35,465 bases of DNA. Source: a virus. Location: positions 1-35,465 of IMG/VR virus record IMGVR_UViG_3300045541_000036; one strand, 5' to 3'. The position numbers and the translations under genes are program-made. The notes under the pieces are model-generated. The model had not been told where the DNA came from. It was given only the letters and a program-made list of their open reading frames with translations, and searched no databases. Shown here piece by piece: positions 10,009 to 32,052 of the stretch (position 1 is its first letter; the number at the start of each line of letters is the position of its first letter).

Positions 10009-10164
10009 TTATTTTAAACCCTTGTTTTTAGCGTTTTTTATGAGTTTTGAAATGTGGCTCAGTTTTATCGTTTTAATGCTTTTGGAGTAAGGAATTAAGG
10101 TTTGGGCAGATAATCGTTTATAGGGCAAATAAATAGGCTCTACGGGCTTAAAAAGGTACCTCAT
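10009..10164 (-). CDS. Small basic hypothetical protein (51 aa)
   Basis: The ATG at 10162-10164 lies in the 3' end of the primase-helicase gene (17-base overlap) and the frame is open to TAA at 10009-10011. The peptide is very basic in its C-terminal half (KSIKTIKLSHISKLIKNAK) and proline/tyrosine-rich before it. It fills what is otherwise a 150-base gap. No known motif; RNA or DNA binding would fit the charge. Confidence 0.45.
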   Translation of the reverse strand: MRYLFKPVEPIYLPYKRLSAQTLIPYSKSIKTIKLSHISKLIKNAKNKGLK

Positions 10165-11815
10165 CTATTTCGGTCTGACGCTCCCTATTTACCCAGTTTG
10201 TTAAATCCTGCCCTGTTTCGTTGTATCTGCCATTCGTAGGGTCCCATCGGTAGGTGATCTTTCCCGTCTCTCCCCAAAATTTAAACTTGACCTTTTGGAT
10301 ATAAAGGGTATTCGTGTAGGCTTCGCTTTCCTTGTACATTGAAATTCCTATATCTGCTTTGTTGTAAAAGTTGGCAGAACCTGAAATGTCATACAATCCA
10401 GGAACCTCATATCTACTCGCTTGGTGATCGTATTTCATTTTCGTGGGATGAGCCACGATAAAAGCGTGAGTTCCGTTTTTCTTGTTAAAGTTTGAAATCA
10501 AATCCAAAGACCGACTAATGTAATTTGTCGAATCATCTTGATGCTCTAACTTATTCCACGGGTCAATAACAAACCATTTGATTCCATACTTTAAAACTGC
10601 CTGTCGAATCTTATTTAGAACCTGCTCCAATCCGTAACCTTCTTCAGGATATACCCAAAAGATTTTATCGTTTAGAAAAGCTTTCGCCATTCCTAATTCT
10701 AATTCGTTGCATTTAAACGCACTCTTTCCGATTATCTTTTCAATCATTTTAATTATGTGAATATCCGTAGGGAAATTCTCAGGTGTAAAAAATGCGCCTT
10801 TAATGTCGTAGTCTATGCAGAGTTGTAAAAGCATAAAGTCTAACCATTCGCTTTTACCGTGTCCCGGTATTCCTGTAATGATTGAAGTATACCCTGGATG
10901 AATTGAAATATGCTTTCCTAATTCGCCTCTTGGTTTCCATCCTTGCGGGAATCCGTTTTTTAAAATACTCAGCGTAGTGTCCCAATGATCACTAACCGAA
11001 TAAATTCCTGTGATTGGAAAAGGCTTTTGATTGGTTAAGTCTATCTGACCTGTTTTACAGAACTGCTCATTGACATCCTTAAAAGGAATTTGAATACGGT
11101 AGCACTTTTCAATTCCTATCCTTCGGGCTAATTCATTTGCAAGGTTCTCTCCAGGTTCATCGTGGTCCGTCAAAATGTAAACCTTTTCTGAGTTCTCAAA
11201 ATACTCCCAACAAGAATCTAAATAGTCAAGATTATTATTTCCTTTAGTAGCACCATTCGGAACAGATACCGTATTTGTAAATCCGTTCTGAATCATCGTG
11301 AGGCAGTCAATCTCCCCCTCGACTATGTAGATTTCTTTTTGGTCTTTAATCCCGTCCAAGTTGTAAAATATCTTTTCCGCATCCTTTACCAGTTTAAAGT
11401 TCTTCGCTCCGTCTCTGCTTTTGATGTTTATAAGTTGTCCGTTTTTAAAATAATTAAACTGGATCACGTTCATCTCTTTACCGACTTGAGGCATCCACTC
11501 TTTTCCTTCGGTGATCTGCATTTTGTTTAAAACCTCCTGAGATATATTCCTTGAAAGGAACCACTCTAAAACTTTATCCGAGAGTTCAGTATTGTTTTTC
11601 CATTCAGGTCTAACGAATGACTTATCCATTTTTTTGTAGAATGATTTTCCGCAATGATTACAAAAGCCTAATCCTGATTCTGTGTTGAAAGAAAACGATT
11701 TGGCATTTTTCTTTTTTCTGTCTTGTGAACAAATCGGGCAGGGTTGCGGATTCTCTCCAACCTTGTTAGCCTCGATTTCAAATTCTATTCTGGAATCCTT
11801 TTCGACTATGAGCAT
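10148..11815 (-). CDS. DNA primase-helicase (T7 gp4-like)
   Basis: 555 residues. An N-terminal zinc finger (CPIC at 26-29, CNHC at 52-55) is followed by a TOPRIM core (VEGEID at 165-170, TDHDEPG near 216). The C-terminal RecA-like helicase has Walker A GIPGHGKS (315-322) and Walker B FVIDPW (415-420). It unwinds and primes at the fork. The ATG at 11813-11815 is preceded by GGAGGTGTGAA, a strong Shine-Dalgarno sequence unusual for this phylum, so I prefer it to the ATG 18 bases earlier. The gene overlaps the DUF4373 gene by 10 bases. Confidence 0.92.
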   Translation of the reverse strand: MLIVEKDSRIEFEIEANKVGENPQPCPICSQDRKKKNAKSFSFNTESGLGFCNHCGKSFYKKMDKSFVRPEWKNNTELSDKVLEWFLSRNISQEVLNKMQITEGKEWMPQVGKEMNVIQFNYFKNGQLINIKSRDGAKNFKLVKDAEKIFYNLDGIKDQKEIYIVEGEIDCLTMIQNGFTNTVSVPNGATKGNNNLDYLDSCWEYFENSEKVYILTDHDEPGENLANELARRIGIEKCYRIQIPFKDVNEQFCKTGQIDLTNQKPFPITGIYSVSDHWDTTLSILKNGFPQGWKPRGELGKHISIHPGYTSIITGIPGHGKSEWLDFMLLQLCIDYDIKGAFFTPENFPTDIHIIKMIEKIIGKSAFKCNELELGMAKAFLNDKIFWVYPEEGYGLEQVLNKIRQAVLKYGIKWFVIDPWNKLEHQDDSTNYISRSLDLISNFNKKNGTHAFIVAHPTKMKYDHQASRYEVPGLYDISGSANFYNKADIGISMYKESEAYTNTLYIQKVKFKFWGETGKITYRWDPTNGRYNETGQDLTNWVNRERQTEIDEVPF

Positions 11816-12540
11816 TTCACACCTCCGTGCCATTGCGGTTTAGAATTACCAAAGCTATATTCAATCTTCATATTTTTTAACCAATTATTTAAAAGTTGTT
11901 TGCATCTTTTTTTATCTGCTTGTTCGATTCCGTTAGTTATGAGGTAAGCATAGGATTCAGTTATAGCCTTTTGAATTAGACTAATCTTTTCAGGATGTAC
12001 CGCTTTCATCTGATCAATGAACAAGTCATCAAATTGTGAGTTGTACCAATTAAAGTCTTTGGCGGATATATCTATATTTACTTTACTTTCTTTTACTTTA
12101 CTTTCCTTTACTTTACTTTGTTGAACGGTCGTTGAACGGTCGTTGAACGGCTGTTGAACGGTCGTTGAATTTCCTGCAATTCTGCGCTCTGCTGAGGCTT
12201 TACCTGCTATCTTACGTTGTTCCTTCATCTTTAAATAAGGCTGAAGGGACTCGTTTAAATCAGCGGAAAAGAACTGCTCCTGGGTGTCAACGTTGAAAAG
12301 TTGATAGTTGCAAATCACTACTCGAACCTTCTGCTCAGATGAACCAATCTCATCAGCCAAAAGATCAATATCTTTTAGCGGATATTTAAAATCAGGTTGC
12401 TCCCTTAGTATCTCTAAAAGTTTAAAATATATCGCATAAGCCTCAAGACCTAACTCCTTTTCCATACGCATAATCCTTCGCTCGTGCCTTGTATTAGAAA
12501 AGTGCGGAAAATAAAATACATCGTTTTTCATATTAGTCAT
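11806..12540 (-). CDS. DUF4373-type replication protein (origin-binding candidate)
   Basis: 244 residues. The N-terminal 90 (FYFPHFSNTRHERRIMRMEKELGLEAYAIYF, followed by LLADEIGSSEQKV) match the DUF4373/Lin1244-like winged-helix domain found in phage replication initiators. A low-complexity linker (about 125-152) is encoded by two sets of DNA repeats, and a helical C-terminal domain follows. Placement directly upstream of the primase-helicase is like lambda O-P. The start is ATG 12540, overlapping the HNH gene by eight bases, with a second ATG at 12531. The initiator role is inferred from fold, position and the iterons inside the gene. Confidence 0.75.
   Translation of the reverse strand: MTNMKNDVFYFPHFSNTRHERRIMRMEKELGLEAYAIYFKLLEILREQPDFKYPLKDIDLLADEIGSSEQKVRVVICNYQLFNVDTQEQFFSADLNESLQPYLKMKEQRKIAGKASAERRIAGNSTTVQQPFNDRSTTVQQSKVKESKVKESKVNIDISAKDFNWYNSQFDDLFIDQMKAVHPEKISLIQKAITESYAYLITNGIEQADKKRCKQLLNNWLKNMKIEYSFGNSKPQWHGGVKCS
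12077..12120. repeat. Three 14-15 bp pyrimidine/purine repeats
   Basis: Three copies of (T)TTTACTTTACTTTC at 12077-12090, 12091-12105 and 12106-12120. The 15-bp period is in frame and encodes repeated KESKV. The tract is AT-rich, with C/T almost exclusively on one strand, and directly adjoins the 11-bp iterons, as an unwinding element would in an origin. Confidence 0.8.
12121..12164. repeat. Four 11-bp iterons (TTGAACGGTCG), candidate replication origin
   Basis: Direct repeats at 12121, 12132, 12143 and 12154; three are exact and the third ends CTG. A fifth partial copy starts at 12165. The 11-bp period is not a multiple of three, so the repeat shifts frame in each copy, which points to selection on the DNA rather than the protein. 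One copy per helical turn puts all sites on one face. Confidence 0.8.
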
Positions 12541-12904
12541 TGTATAAAAAGTCCATCAAATTCCACTTATTTATCTTAGGATCACCTTCTAAAAAATAAC
12601 GCCTCATTTCAATAGCGATATGCAGTAAATCCCTTCTTGATATACCAATTTTTAAGAACTGAGCGTATATCATTTTGTCATCTTCTTTTAGTTTTTCCTC
12701 ATCCTGATGGCAGTTTTTGCATAAAGTAAAAAGCATTTCATCTGCGTAATCTTCAGGATTTTCTTTATCAAAATAAAAAGCGTGATGAATTTGCAACTCA
12801 GTTTTATCATCTCCGCAAAACATACACTTAAATCCATCTCTGTTCATAATCTCAAGTCGCTTTCTTTGCCAACCTGGAAGCCTTAATTTTTCTTTGTAAG
12901 TCAT
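12533..12904 (-). CDS. HNH endonuclease
   Basis: 123 residues from ATG 12902-12904. The longer frame (to 12958) would run through the terminator hairpin and is not used. CMFCGDD (C27, C30), LQIHHAFY (H40, H41) and LCKNCHQDEE (C62, C65, H66) form the HNH core with its zinc-binding pairs. It lies between the structured RNA and the replication protein, so it is not in the usual terminase-adjacent place. A replication or recombination role is possible; a selfish homing role is less likely because it is embedded in the operon. Confidence 0.85.
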   Translation of the reverse strand: MTYKEKLRLPGWQRKRLEIMNRDGFKCMFCGDDKTELQIHHAFYFDKENPEDYADEMLFTLCKNCHQDEEKLKEDDKMIYAQFLKIGISRRDLLHIAIEMRRYFLEGDPKINKWNLMDFLYND

Positions 12905-12907
12905 ATA

Positions 12908-13010
12908 ATAAAAAAGCCCAATGGTCGGGTTCGGATTGACGGCTCCTCCCCCTACCACTGGGCAAAAAATTCTTAAATCGTTGCCGTCACAACGTGTCGA
13001 TCCTATCGAC
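12908..13010 (-). ncRNA. Candidate structured small RNA with a kissing loop (about 100 nt)
   Basis: Hairpin 1 is GUCGAU-AGG-AUCGAC (13010-12996). Hairpin 2 is CGUUG-UGACGG-CAACG (12994-12979). Hairpin 3 pairs GCCCAGUGGU (12963-12954) with ACCAUUGGGC (12925-12916), continues through GGG/CCC and GGA/UCC, and is followed by six U. The loop of hairpin 2 (UGACGG) is perfectly complementary to CCGUCA in the apical loop of hairpin 3 (12942-12937). A promoter box ends four bases upstream. No ORF is needed here. It could be a stand-alone RNA or an attenuator for the HNH-replication operon. Confidence 0.65.
12910..12963 (-). terminator. Intrinsic terminator before the HNH gene
   Basis: A ten-pair stem (one G-U) from 12963-12954 and 12925-12916, extended by inner GC pairs, with a T-run at 12915-12910 on the minus strand. 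It ends six bases before the HNH start codon, an unusual place unless read-through is regulated. Confidence 0.8.
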
Positions 13011-13013
13011 TCC

Positions 13014-13047
13014 CAAATATAAAATTATCTCTTCAGAACTAAAACAA
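13014..13047 (-). promoter_or_regulatory. Bacteroidota-type promoter (TTG-N23-TATATTTG)
   Basis: TATATTTG at 13021-13014 is a perfect -7 box on the minus strand, with TTG at 13047-13045. The 23-nt spacer is at the long end of the allowed range. Initiation at about 13008-13011 falls on the first base of hairpin 1. The -33 element is inside the upstream membrane-protein gene. Confidence 0.6.
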
Positions 13048-15532: not shown

Positions 15533-15533
15533 T

Positions 15534-15564
15534 TTGTTTGCGTTGGTGATGCTAATTAACTTTA
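15534..15564 (+). promoter_or_regulatory. Possible promoter for the endolysin gene
   Basis: TTG at 15534-15536 and TAACTTTA at 15557-15564 (seven of eight consensus bases) with a 20-nt spacer lie on the plus strand. It is the only candidate I found for the single plus-strand gene. AT-richness of the region makes chance likely. Confidence 0.3.
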
Positions 15565-15645
15565 AAGAAATGATATAAAAAATAGTTCAATGAATCTTTT
15601 TTTTAAAAAGTGCAAAATCAACCAAAAAACGCATATTTTAGGGCT

Positions 15646-16101
15646 ATGAATTTGACAAAAAACTTCACCCTTGCGGAGCTGACATACGCTAATCCGGTCC
15701 ACGGAATCGAGAATACCCCGTCTCCGATGGTCATTGAGAACCTAAAATTACTTGCTGAAAAGGTCCTTCAGCCTATTCGGGACCAATTTAAAATACCTGT
15801 TATCGTGACCTCAGGATATAGATCGCCTGAGTATAACTTAAGAATCGGCGGGGCTATAAACTCCCAACATATGAGAGGCGAAGCGGTAGATATCGATCTG
15901 GGACCGAAGAACAGAGAGGTCTTTGAGTGGGTAATTAACAACCTAACGGTTGACCAAATCATCTGGGAACTCGGAACACCACCGCCTAACGGAAATCCTC
16001 AGTGGATTCATATCTCATATAAGAAAGAAGGAAATAGAAATATGGTCACCAGAGCAGAGCAGAAAAACTCTAAAATCGTCTATTATATAATGCCTCGTTA
16101 G
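15646..16101 (+). CDS. Endolysin, peptidase M15-type (D,D/L,D-carboxypeptidase fold)
   Basis: 151 residues from ATG 15646. An upstream GTG at 15610 adds 12 residues with no match to the family start, so ATG is preferred. VTSGYRSPEYN, SQHMRGEAVDID (H75, G78, D82) and WIHIS (H122) are the zinc-binding and catalytic signatures of Peptidase_M15_3 peptidoglycan hydrolases. No signal peptide, so release would need the holin. It is the only plus-strand gene; its stop overlaps that of the phosphoesterase gene tail-to-tail. Confidence 0.9.
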   Translation: MNLTKNFTLAELTYANPVHGIENTPSPMVIENLKLLAEKVLQPIRDQFKIPVIVTSGYRSPEYNLRIGGAINSQHMRGEAVDIDLGPKNREVFEWVINNLTVDQIIWELGTPPPNGNPQWIHISYKKEGNRNMVTRAEQKNSKIVYYIMPR

Positions 16102-30028: not shown

Positions 30029-32052
30029 ACGGTTGTAAGTGACTCTTTAAATCTTACCTTATTTTGTACTTCAGTAGCTTCCTTCCAAGACGCTACAATA
30101 GGAGGCATATTTTTAACTGCATTAGCTACTGAGAAACTTTGATTAATAGGATTTGTAGTAGCCTGAGTTGCAGTAATTCCAGAACGACCACCAGATACTG
30201 ATGTACTTATTGAAGAGCCTCCAGTTGAAGAATTACCACTTTGAATGATTGCTCTTGCTTTTGAAGCAGCGGCTAATATTGCACTAATCTGAGTTGCATA
30301 AAAAGCAGGAAAAGCAAATGCCGCACCTGGACCAGTTGCTTTTGCTGATTGTTGAGCAATAACAAGTCCATTTGAAAATCCTACACCAACATTATATGCA
30401 ACTTCAGCAAGTGCGGCAATTTTTTGAGCCTTTGATCCTTCTTTTAGTAATGATCCAACAAAAGAAATGGTATCTGCTACTGCTCTTTGCCTTAATAATC
30501 TTAAATTGTTTTCTAAATTTATTTTTTGAATATTATCTGCTTTTATTCTTTCAATTTCTTTTTCCCTTTCTTGTTCTTTAAATGCTTGCCATTGTTTTTC
30601 ATTCTCTTCAAGTTGCTTCTTAGTGTCTTCGTCTATTTGAAGTTGTTGAATTGCTTTTTTTAATTGAGCATCATTTTCAATTCTTGTCTCTTCAGCCAAT
30701 TTATCACTAAGTGCTTGAATTTCAGCGTCTTGTCTTGCTTGAATAGCTTCTTCAGTATATTGAGCATCTAATTGATCTTTTTTCTTTTTTTCTTCTGCCG
30801 CCTTTTCTCTATCTGCTTTATCCTTTTCAGCTATTGCATCCTTTTGGTTCTGAACCTTTTCTAAAAATGCAAGACTCTCACCTTCCGCTTGATCTATGGC
30901 TTTAAATGATGCTAATGCTTTAGCTAATTGTTCAGGACTGAAAATTCCTGATTTAGCAAGTATTTCAAATTGCTCACCTAATGTTTTGTTTTGTTGAACC
31001 GCTTCTGTAAATGCTTTATTCTTATCTACCTGTGCTTTTTTACTTTGAATTAAAGCCTTTACATCTGCTTCAAATTGTAAATTTTTTATTCTTAGGTTTT
31101 CCTGTATTTGGTTGTTTTCTAATTCAATTGCTTGATTTAAAAGGTCTTGTTGTTCTTTTGCAGTTAATGTTCTATTCTTTGCGGCTATTACAAGTCGTTT
31201 AATTTGTAGTTCAACACGGGAAGAACTTAATTCAAAAGCTATTGTTGCGTCCTCTATTTCACGGGTTAGATTAACAATATCTTGACCATCTTTTGCCGCT
31301 TGAGCCATTTTATCTCCTAAATTTTTAGCCTCATCTGCGGCTTTTGAAAAATTAAGCGTTAAAACATTCCCAAGGATTCTGCCGACTTGATCTATATTTT
31401 GAATGAAAGAATCAAAAGCAGATGTAACCTGAGTTACTGCATTTTCAATTAAATCTAAAATAGGCTCATATTTTTCCAAGTATTTGTAAACCGCTCCAAG
31501 TGCAAGTGCTATTGCGGCTAATATCGCACCAAGTGGAGTTGCAATAAATTGTTTACTTGCCTTAGTTGCCCCATCTATACCATTAACAAATCCACCCAAT
31601 CCAGGAACTACACCATCTAAAGCAGATGCGTAGTTACCAATGTTTATTTTCTGTTGCTCAAGTGAAGAAACATTTTCTTTTATCTTTTTATTATTCTTAT
31701 CTAACTGATCATTTATTTCTTTAAGTCTTTTTTGACCTTCGGCATTAGATAAGTTTAAATTGTTTCTTTCTTGAGTTAGTTTTTTGTTTTGTTCCCTTAA
31801 ATCATTAATTGAATCTTGTTGAATTTTTACTGCGGATGTAACTGATTTTAAAGCATTTTCTTGACTCTTTAATTGAGTTGAATTTTCTTTTGTTTGCTCT
31901 CTATATTCCGCAAGAGTTTTTGAACCACTAATAAAATCAGCATTTAACTGCTCTTGCTTAGTTTTAAGACTTTCAATATTCTTATTTAGGTCGTCAATAC
32001 CTCTAATATCAGTCTCAACTTTTATCTCTATTATTACTTGTTCGTCAGCCAT
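30025..32052 (-). CDS. Tape measure protein
   Basis: 675 residues. Coiled coil at about 20-140 (KTKQEQLNADFISG, DQLDKNNKKIKENVSSL), hydrophobic glycine/alanine segments near 170-195 (TPLGAILAAIALALGAVYK), a second long coil (about 265-525) and a small-residue-rich C-terminal region. This is the usual composition of a short siphophage tape measure. The size would predict a tail of about 100 nm at roughly 0.15 nm per residue. The gene overlaps the upstream tail protein by eight bases. Confidence 0.8.
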   Translation of the reverse strand: MADEQVIIEIKVETDIRGIDDLNKNIESLKTKQEQLNADFISGSKTLAEYREQTKENSTQLKSQENALKSVTSAVKIQQDSINDLREQNKKLTQERNNLNLSNAEGQKRLKEINDQLDKNNKKIKENVSSLEQQKINIGNYASALDGVVPGLGGFVNGIDGATKASKQFIATPLGAILAAIALALGAVYKYLEKYEPILDLIENAVTQVTSAFDSFIQNIDQVGRILGNVLTLNFSKAADEAKNLGDKMAQAAKDGQDIVNLTREIEDATIAFELSSSRVELQIKRLVIAAKNRTLTAKEQQDLLNQAIELENNQIQENLRIKNLQFEADVKALIQSKKAQVDKNKAFTEAVQQNKTLGEQFEILAKSGIFSPEQLAKALASFKAIDQAEGESLAFLEKVQNQKDAIAEKDKADREKAAEEKKKKDQLDAQYTEEAIQARQDAEIQALSDKLAEETRIENDAQLKKAIQQLQIDEDTKKQLEENEKQWQAFKEQEREKEIERIKADNIQKINLENNLRLLRQRAVADTISFVGSLLKEGSKAQKIAALAEVAYNVGVGFSNGLVIAQQSAKATGPGAAFAFPAFYATQISAILAAASKARAIIQSGNSSTGGSSISTSVSGGRSGITATQATTNPINQSFSVANAVKNMPPIVASWKEATEVQNKVRFKESLTTV

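Follow-up and report, generated by a model that had tools for sequence, protein, structure and literature searches.

A divergent phage RNA with complementary hairpin loops precedes an HNH-replication operon

When the DNA directly upstream of a phage replication operon appears to encode a short RNA with its own promoter, its own terminator, and two hairpin loops that could pair with one another, the question arises of whether this fold is real and what such an RNA would do in that position. The DNA in which we encountered this arrangement, hereafter the window, is a phage record from IMG/VR that is 35,465 nucleotides in length, and the element spans positions 13021-12910 of its minus strand. 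The promoter, two 5' hairpins, and terminator with six U residues that were described in the original prediction are all present on that strand. The Bacteroidetes-type -7 promoter box, TATATTTG, occupies 13014..13021. The TAnnTTTG box is a Bacteroidetes promoter (PMC6847099), and several such boxes are found in the intergenic regions of the window. Since the G of the F. johnsoniae box, which has the consensus TANNTTTG, lies at -5 (PMC6847099), transcription is predicted to start near 13010/13009, which agrees with the proposal that the first hairpin begins at the transcription start. This 5' hairpin, GUCGAU-AGG-AUCGAC (12996..13010), is followed by hairpin A, CGUUG-UGACGG-CAACG (12979..12994), by an A/U-rich, unstructured linker (12964..12978) that is variable among relatives, and by hairpin B, the terminator hairpin (12916..12963). 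Folding places in hairpin B a 10-bp basal stem, GGG/CCC, a GGA/GAA internal loop, GGA/UCC, and an apical loop, GCCGUCAA (12943-12936). The basal stem is succeeded at once by six T residues (12910..12915), as is expected for the U-tract of an intrinsic terminator. The UGACGG loop of hairpin A (12989-12984) is fully complementary, over 6 nt, to CCGUCA (12942-12937) in the hairpin B loop, just as had been claimed, and these two segments are the halves of the putative loop-loop helix.

The operon behind the element lies on the same strand. Its first gene, an HNH endonuclease ORF of 123 aa (12533..12904; PF01844, E 1.2e-4; PHROG 119, E 6.8e-13), has its ATG at 12904, 6 nt past the U-tract, and is followed by genes for a replication initiation protein (11806..12540; PHROG 2562, E 2.4e-23) and a DNA primase/helicase (10148..11833; PHROG 239, E 2.9e-91).

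The window RNA is more stable than expected for its composition, with a folding energy of -42.5 kcal/mol compared with -28.6 ± 3.8 kcal/mol for shuffled sequences (z -3.6). A descriptor that combines a promoter, a loop-complementary hairpin, and a terminator was passed by 11 of 2,511 shuffled regions. Across the 35-kb window, the element at 13021-12910 is the sole site reported by the promoter-containing descriptor, and a version without the promoter yields one extra match, at 30279 on the plus strand, inside coding sequence. A tRNA or tmRNA reading of the window RNA was rejected. Two other stretches of the window deserve mention. At 6739-6620 on the minus strand, a TTAAGTTTG box, approximately 100 nt of noncoding DNA, and a GAGGGA/TCCCTC terminator with seven T residues precede the ATG of a glycosyltransferase-like gene, with no clear loop complementarity. 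Positions 15533-16097 comprise 565 nt without a convincing minus-strand gene in a genome that is otherwise tightly packed.

The decisive evidence for the element is its covariation in relatives, and these were not readily reached from the window sequence. The HNH protein, used as bait, recovered only 2 weak relatives. The window hairpin A, used as a DNA pattern, matched 42 stretches, all of them chance matches or coding repeats, and a pattern representing the internal loop found in the window gave 4 matches, in tRNA-like or coding contexts, from which the element is absent. Related phages were instead fetched via their primase and exonuclease genes, and the corresponding slot ahead of the replication initiator was inspected. 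BLASTN of the window RNA against the related-primase loci returned low-complexity matches only. In this slot, locus L078 carries GUGCAG opposite CUGCAC and L079 carries GUAAGGA opposite UCCUUAC. The element is missing from the initiator slot in some close relatives (L076 and L077), and the sequence of the window's nearest relative, L075, whose exonuclease is 87% identical, ends before the element would be reached. A descriptor search then surfaced a large homogeneous group of relatives, which we refer to as family R1.

We scanned IMG/VR with nothing but the terminator's conserved internal loop, TGAGTAGAG-N8-CTCGAAAGC, a query in which neither kissing loop is specified. The scan returned 61 stretches in 48 distinct contexts, and in every one of the 48 the loop of the hairpin upstream and the 7-nt terminator loop are exactly complementary, an outcome for which the chance expectation is well under 1% per context. 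Within an alignment of 28 members, all seven loop-loop pairs show changes on both sides and none shows one-sided changes; two-sided changes are also seen at 4 of 4 hairpin A pairs and at 6 of 8 terminator stem pairs. Loop-loop cells are paired in 99.2% of cases, as opposed to 26-41% when the partners are slid relative to one another, and none of 500 shuffles matched the loop-loop covariation. Shuffle tests of this kind are inflated by relatedness, which the slid control preserves. The relatives therefore keep loop complementarity while using different sequences, and they display the compensatory loop changes that had been put forward as the check on the kissing contact. The fold is real, in that structure and covariation are observed; function is inferred. 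The kissing helix measures 6-7 bp in the family and reaches 10 bp in a divergent variant.

We used a covariance model of R1, built from the 28 members and excluding both the window sequence and the loop-loop helix, to ask whether the window RNA belongs to this family. The top match in the window lies at 12996-12908 and scores 28.4 bits (E 0.0013 in a search without filters; the E-values are rough, given a short calibration), and the next scores 13.6 bits. Hairpin A and the terminator hairpin, including both loops, are in register with the model, and the window also has the TAnnTTTG box directly upstream (13021-13014) and the ATG shortly downstream (12904) by which family members are recognized. 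The core internal loop, a loop-E-like UGAGUA/GAAAG closed by GAG/CUC, is absent from the window, where the counterpart is GGA/GAA closed by GGA/UCC; locus L078 keeps AGUA/GAA together with CCG/CGG. The constancy of this internal loop in the core set arises partly by construction, as the motif was in the query that gathered the set. The 5' hairpin at 12996..13010 falls outside the model and is particular to the window RNA, since relatives begin directly with hairpin A. Because it lacks the core internal loop and carries this extra hairpin, the window RNA is, judged by sequence and predicted fold, a divergent relative of R1 and not a core member. Its match to the model is modest, and similarly divergent matches occur in L078 (25.5 bits) and L089 (25.0 bits). 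Tenacibaculum phage JQ, which surfaced only with the covariance model and a relaxed promoter box, has a match of 23.3 bits with a 10-nt loop complement that precedes its replication genes; searching seven named phages with the TAnnTTTG descriptor had given no clear match. JQ is a named phage whose RNA, though divergent, has the same layout, so the fold is open to experimental test.

Given that the fold is conserved, its placement bears on what it might do. In 36 of 39 relatives the promoter box lies 9-10 nt before the hairpin A loop, and the transcript is therefore expected to start at the hairpin. The gene upstream of the element usually ends near the promoter box. A co-directional ATG follows within tens of nucleotides wherever the contig continues, so there is no space for a second promoter. 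One might suppose that the RNA is simply the 5' end of the mRNA, with a folded end that protects the message, an open stretch before the AUG, and a U-tract that goes unused. The structure does begin at the predicted transcript 5' end and stop shortly before the AUG, and structure at the start codon tunes translation in Flavobacterium, where the start-codon region is usually less paired from -20 to +20 (PMC6847099). What makes this stabilizer or translation element unlikely is the T-run after the stem, which is a mark of intrinsic terminators: T makes up 80-100% at positions 1-6 after the stem in relatives, as compared with 31% before ATGs generally, where the sequence is A-rich (46% A, 31% T). 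The U-tract is weak in a few members (L086 and L078).

The conserved U-tract, on the other hand, is what would be expected of a trans-acting small RNA, a complete promoter-RNA-terminator unit that lies before the next gene only by chance. In such an RNA the kissing helix might stabilize the molecule, two copies might pair with each other, or phage or host RNAs might be targeted. RNAs sharing one contig carry different loop sequences, which for co-resident RNAs of this type would avoid cross-talk. We regard this explanation, in any of its three forms, as possible but on the unlikely side, since a free small RNA needs neither an ATG consistently within tens of nucleotides nor the particular genes found downstream. 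Most of these encode either replication initiators, drawn from several unrelated families (DUF6291, Lin1244-like, HTH, and others), or homing-type endonucleases (HNH, NUMOD4, and GIY-YIG), the remainder being a KilA-N protein and some unknowns. For several of the initiators the assignment relies on gene position and weak profile matches in place of a curated family.

The usual location next to a replication initiator gene, mostly with one copy per phage, would also suit an origin-linked RNA that directly primes or regulates DNA replication. The element is present in 13 of 14 records searched, once in eleven and twice in two. We consider a role at the origin very improbable, since the R1 RNA also precedes GIY-YIG and NUMOD4-HNH genes, including in one 266-kb phage contig, and there is no GC-skew turning point at the element in the window. 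Still harder to credit is the idea that the RNA guides the HNH nuclease encoded next to it, as in IscB/omega-RNA. In the window an HNH gene does follow a structured RNA, but the majority of members precede non-nuclease genes, the RNA is ended by its own terminator, and there is no variable guide segment. Membership in the IscB/omega-RNA system would call for a RuvC-split HNH nuclease as the next gene, whereas the 123-aa HNH protein matches nothing but HNH in Pfam.

The explanation that we consider best, though we would put it no higher than evenly balanced against being wrong, is that the window RNA belongs, if distantly, to a new phage leader RNA family and acts in cis as an attenuator of the replication operon. 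It is favored because the terminator is conserved, a start codon lies directly behind it, and the set of downstream genes is narrow. In this scheme, transcription would start at the TATATTTG box and the RNA would fold into a 5' hairpin (two in the window phage) and an intrinsic terminator whose apical loops kiss. Most transcripts, whether from the element's own promoter or running in from upstream, would stop at the U-tract and release a stable RNA of approximately 100 nt, and the replication operon, here with the HNH gene in front, would be made only through regulated read-through. The kissing helix could either tighten the terminator and protect the short RNA, or delay terminator closure and so set the level of read-through. 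The element probably gates the timing of phage replication protein production. The placement from promoter to start codon and the conserved terminator U-tract are observed, whereas attenuator action in cis is inferred, without transcript data. The original prediction had offered both a stand-alone RNA and a switch for the operon; of the two, the evidence favors the cis role over an RNA that only stands alone, given the ATG immediately after the element and the small number of functional classes among the downstream genes, but neither is proven.

Some observations weigh against attenuation. No competing antiterminator helix is conserved among relatives, in which the linker is A/U-rich and variable, and the attenuator's switch is therefore missing. 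A gene soon after a terminator is to be expected anyway in compact phage genomes, and a different RNA family occupies the same position before other genes. The weak U-tracts of a few members, the lack of the element from the slot in some close relatives, and the window's modest match to the model with its differing internal loop also count against it. In favor of attenuation, scanning four near-complete phage contigs did not reveal other promoter-terminator-ATG cassettes of this kind. The exact family motif has no match in a set of 84,980 bacterial and archaeal genomes, one per species, which suggests, within the limits of an exact-match test, that the carriers may be virulent phages.

The association of a single RNA fold with initiators from unrelated families as well as with homing endonucleases suggests that these genes have a common requirement for gated expression. 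A broader and tentative proposal, which is possible though we would not lean on it, is that Bacteroidetes phages gate their replication initiators, and the homing endonucleases that took over the leader, via an intramolecular kissing-loop attenuator, and that divergence of the loop pairs keeps RNAs sharing a cell from cross-reacting, much as loop changes affect plasmid incompatibility.

Further RNAs were noticed in these phages. A second, distinct family comprises 51 stretches in related phages (L107:2763 +, L092:6420 +, L100:4131 +, L117:2439 +, L223:2222 +, L207:471 -, and approximately 25 more). Its members have a TAnnTTTG box, then a constant 5' hairpin, ATCGG-AGTAACGA(A)-CCGAT, a linker, and a branched terminator; seven nucleotides of the linker covary with seven in a hairpin loop of that terminator (CATCAAC/GTTGATG, CATCTAC/GTAGATG, GAGTAAC/GTTACTC, CAATCAC/GTGATTG, and others), and the RNAs end in a U-tract followed by an ATG. 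Five of these loci were scanned against Rfam without a match. Additional promoter-hairpin-terminator RNAs with complementary loops of 7-8 nt and differing internal sequences lie at L134:423 +, L143:2172 +, L173:6936 -, and L159:1049 +, on contigs that also carry the main family. A conserved terminator-like element, GCCCGCGAAA.AGTTAACC ... AATGACCGGGC followed by a T-run, occupies the slot before the initiator at L080:1263-1380 + and L078:3060-3175 +, in the latter in tandem with the kissing-loop RNA.

The statement that the window RNA belongs to no known RNA family is borne out by Rfam 15, which gave 0 matches at the gathering threshold for the window and 27 related loci and, at E<=10, nothing meaningful. 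No published description of the RNA was found in open-access full text. The RNA family is new, but its general kind, the structured phage leader, is known; the kissing contact with a terminator loop is unusual. To our knowledge, only a handful of model phages have provided examples of structured leaders that control replication genes; here, an uncatalogued family with a fully covarying tertiary contact is spread over dozens of environmental phages. Two phage RNAs share features with it. The phi29 pRNA is a small phage RNA with complementary loops that pair between molecules and drives DNA packaging, whereas R1 adjoins replication genes and carries a terminator. The HK022 put RNAs are two-hairpin RNAs that begin a phage transcript and suppress downstream terminators, whereas the second hairpin of R1 is itself the terminator.

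The closest functional parallels, offered as analogies without a claim of membership, are the P4 CI RNA and IsrK (PMC4825925) and the repZ leaders (PMC10724649). The leaders of IncI-complex repZ genes (ColIb-P9, IncB, and IncK) likewise have long-range loop pairing before a replication initiator; they are controlled by a pseudoknot, and loop changes alter plasmid compatibility (PMC10724649). In these leaders a separate antisense RNA acts on translation, whereas R1 contains a terminator, and no antisense counterpart was detected for it. With IsrK of prophage Gifsy-1, R1 would share a single phage promoter whose transcripts either terminate as a small RNA or read through into the mRNA, but IsrK activates translation of the long form, and the account consulted describes no covarying kissing-loop terminator (PMC4825925). 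In P4, premature termination in the leader of the replication genes is controlled by pairing with a short RNA from that same leader (PMC4825925), which parallels the pairing-linked termination proposed for R1. Rfam, the sole comparison made, gives no sequence relation between the CI RNA and R1. The CI RNA pairs with separate seqA and seqC sites, whereas in R1 both loops reside in one small RNA and the 3' pairing partner is the loop of the terminator itself.
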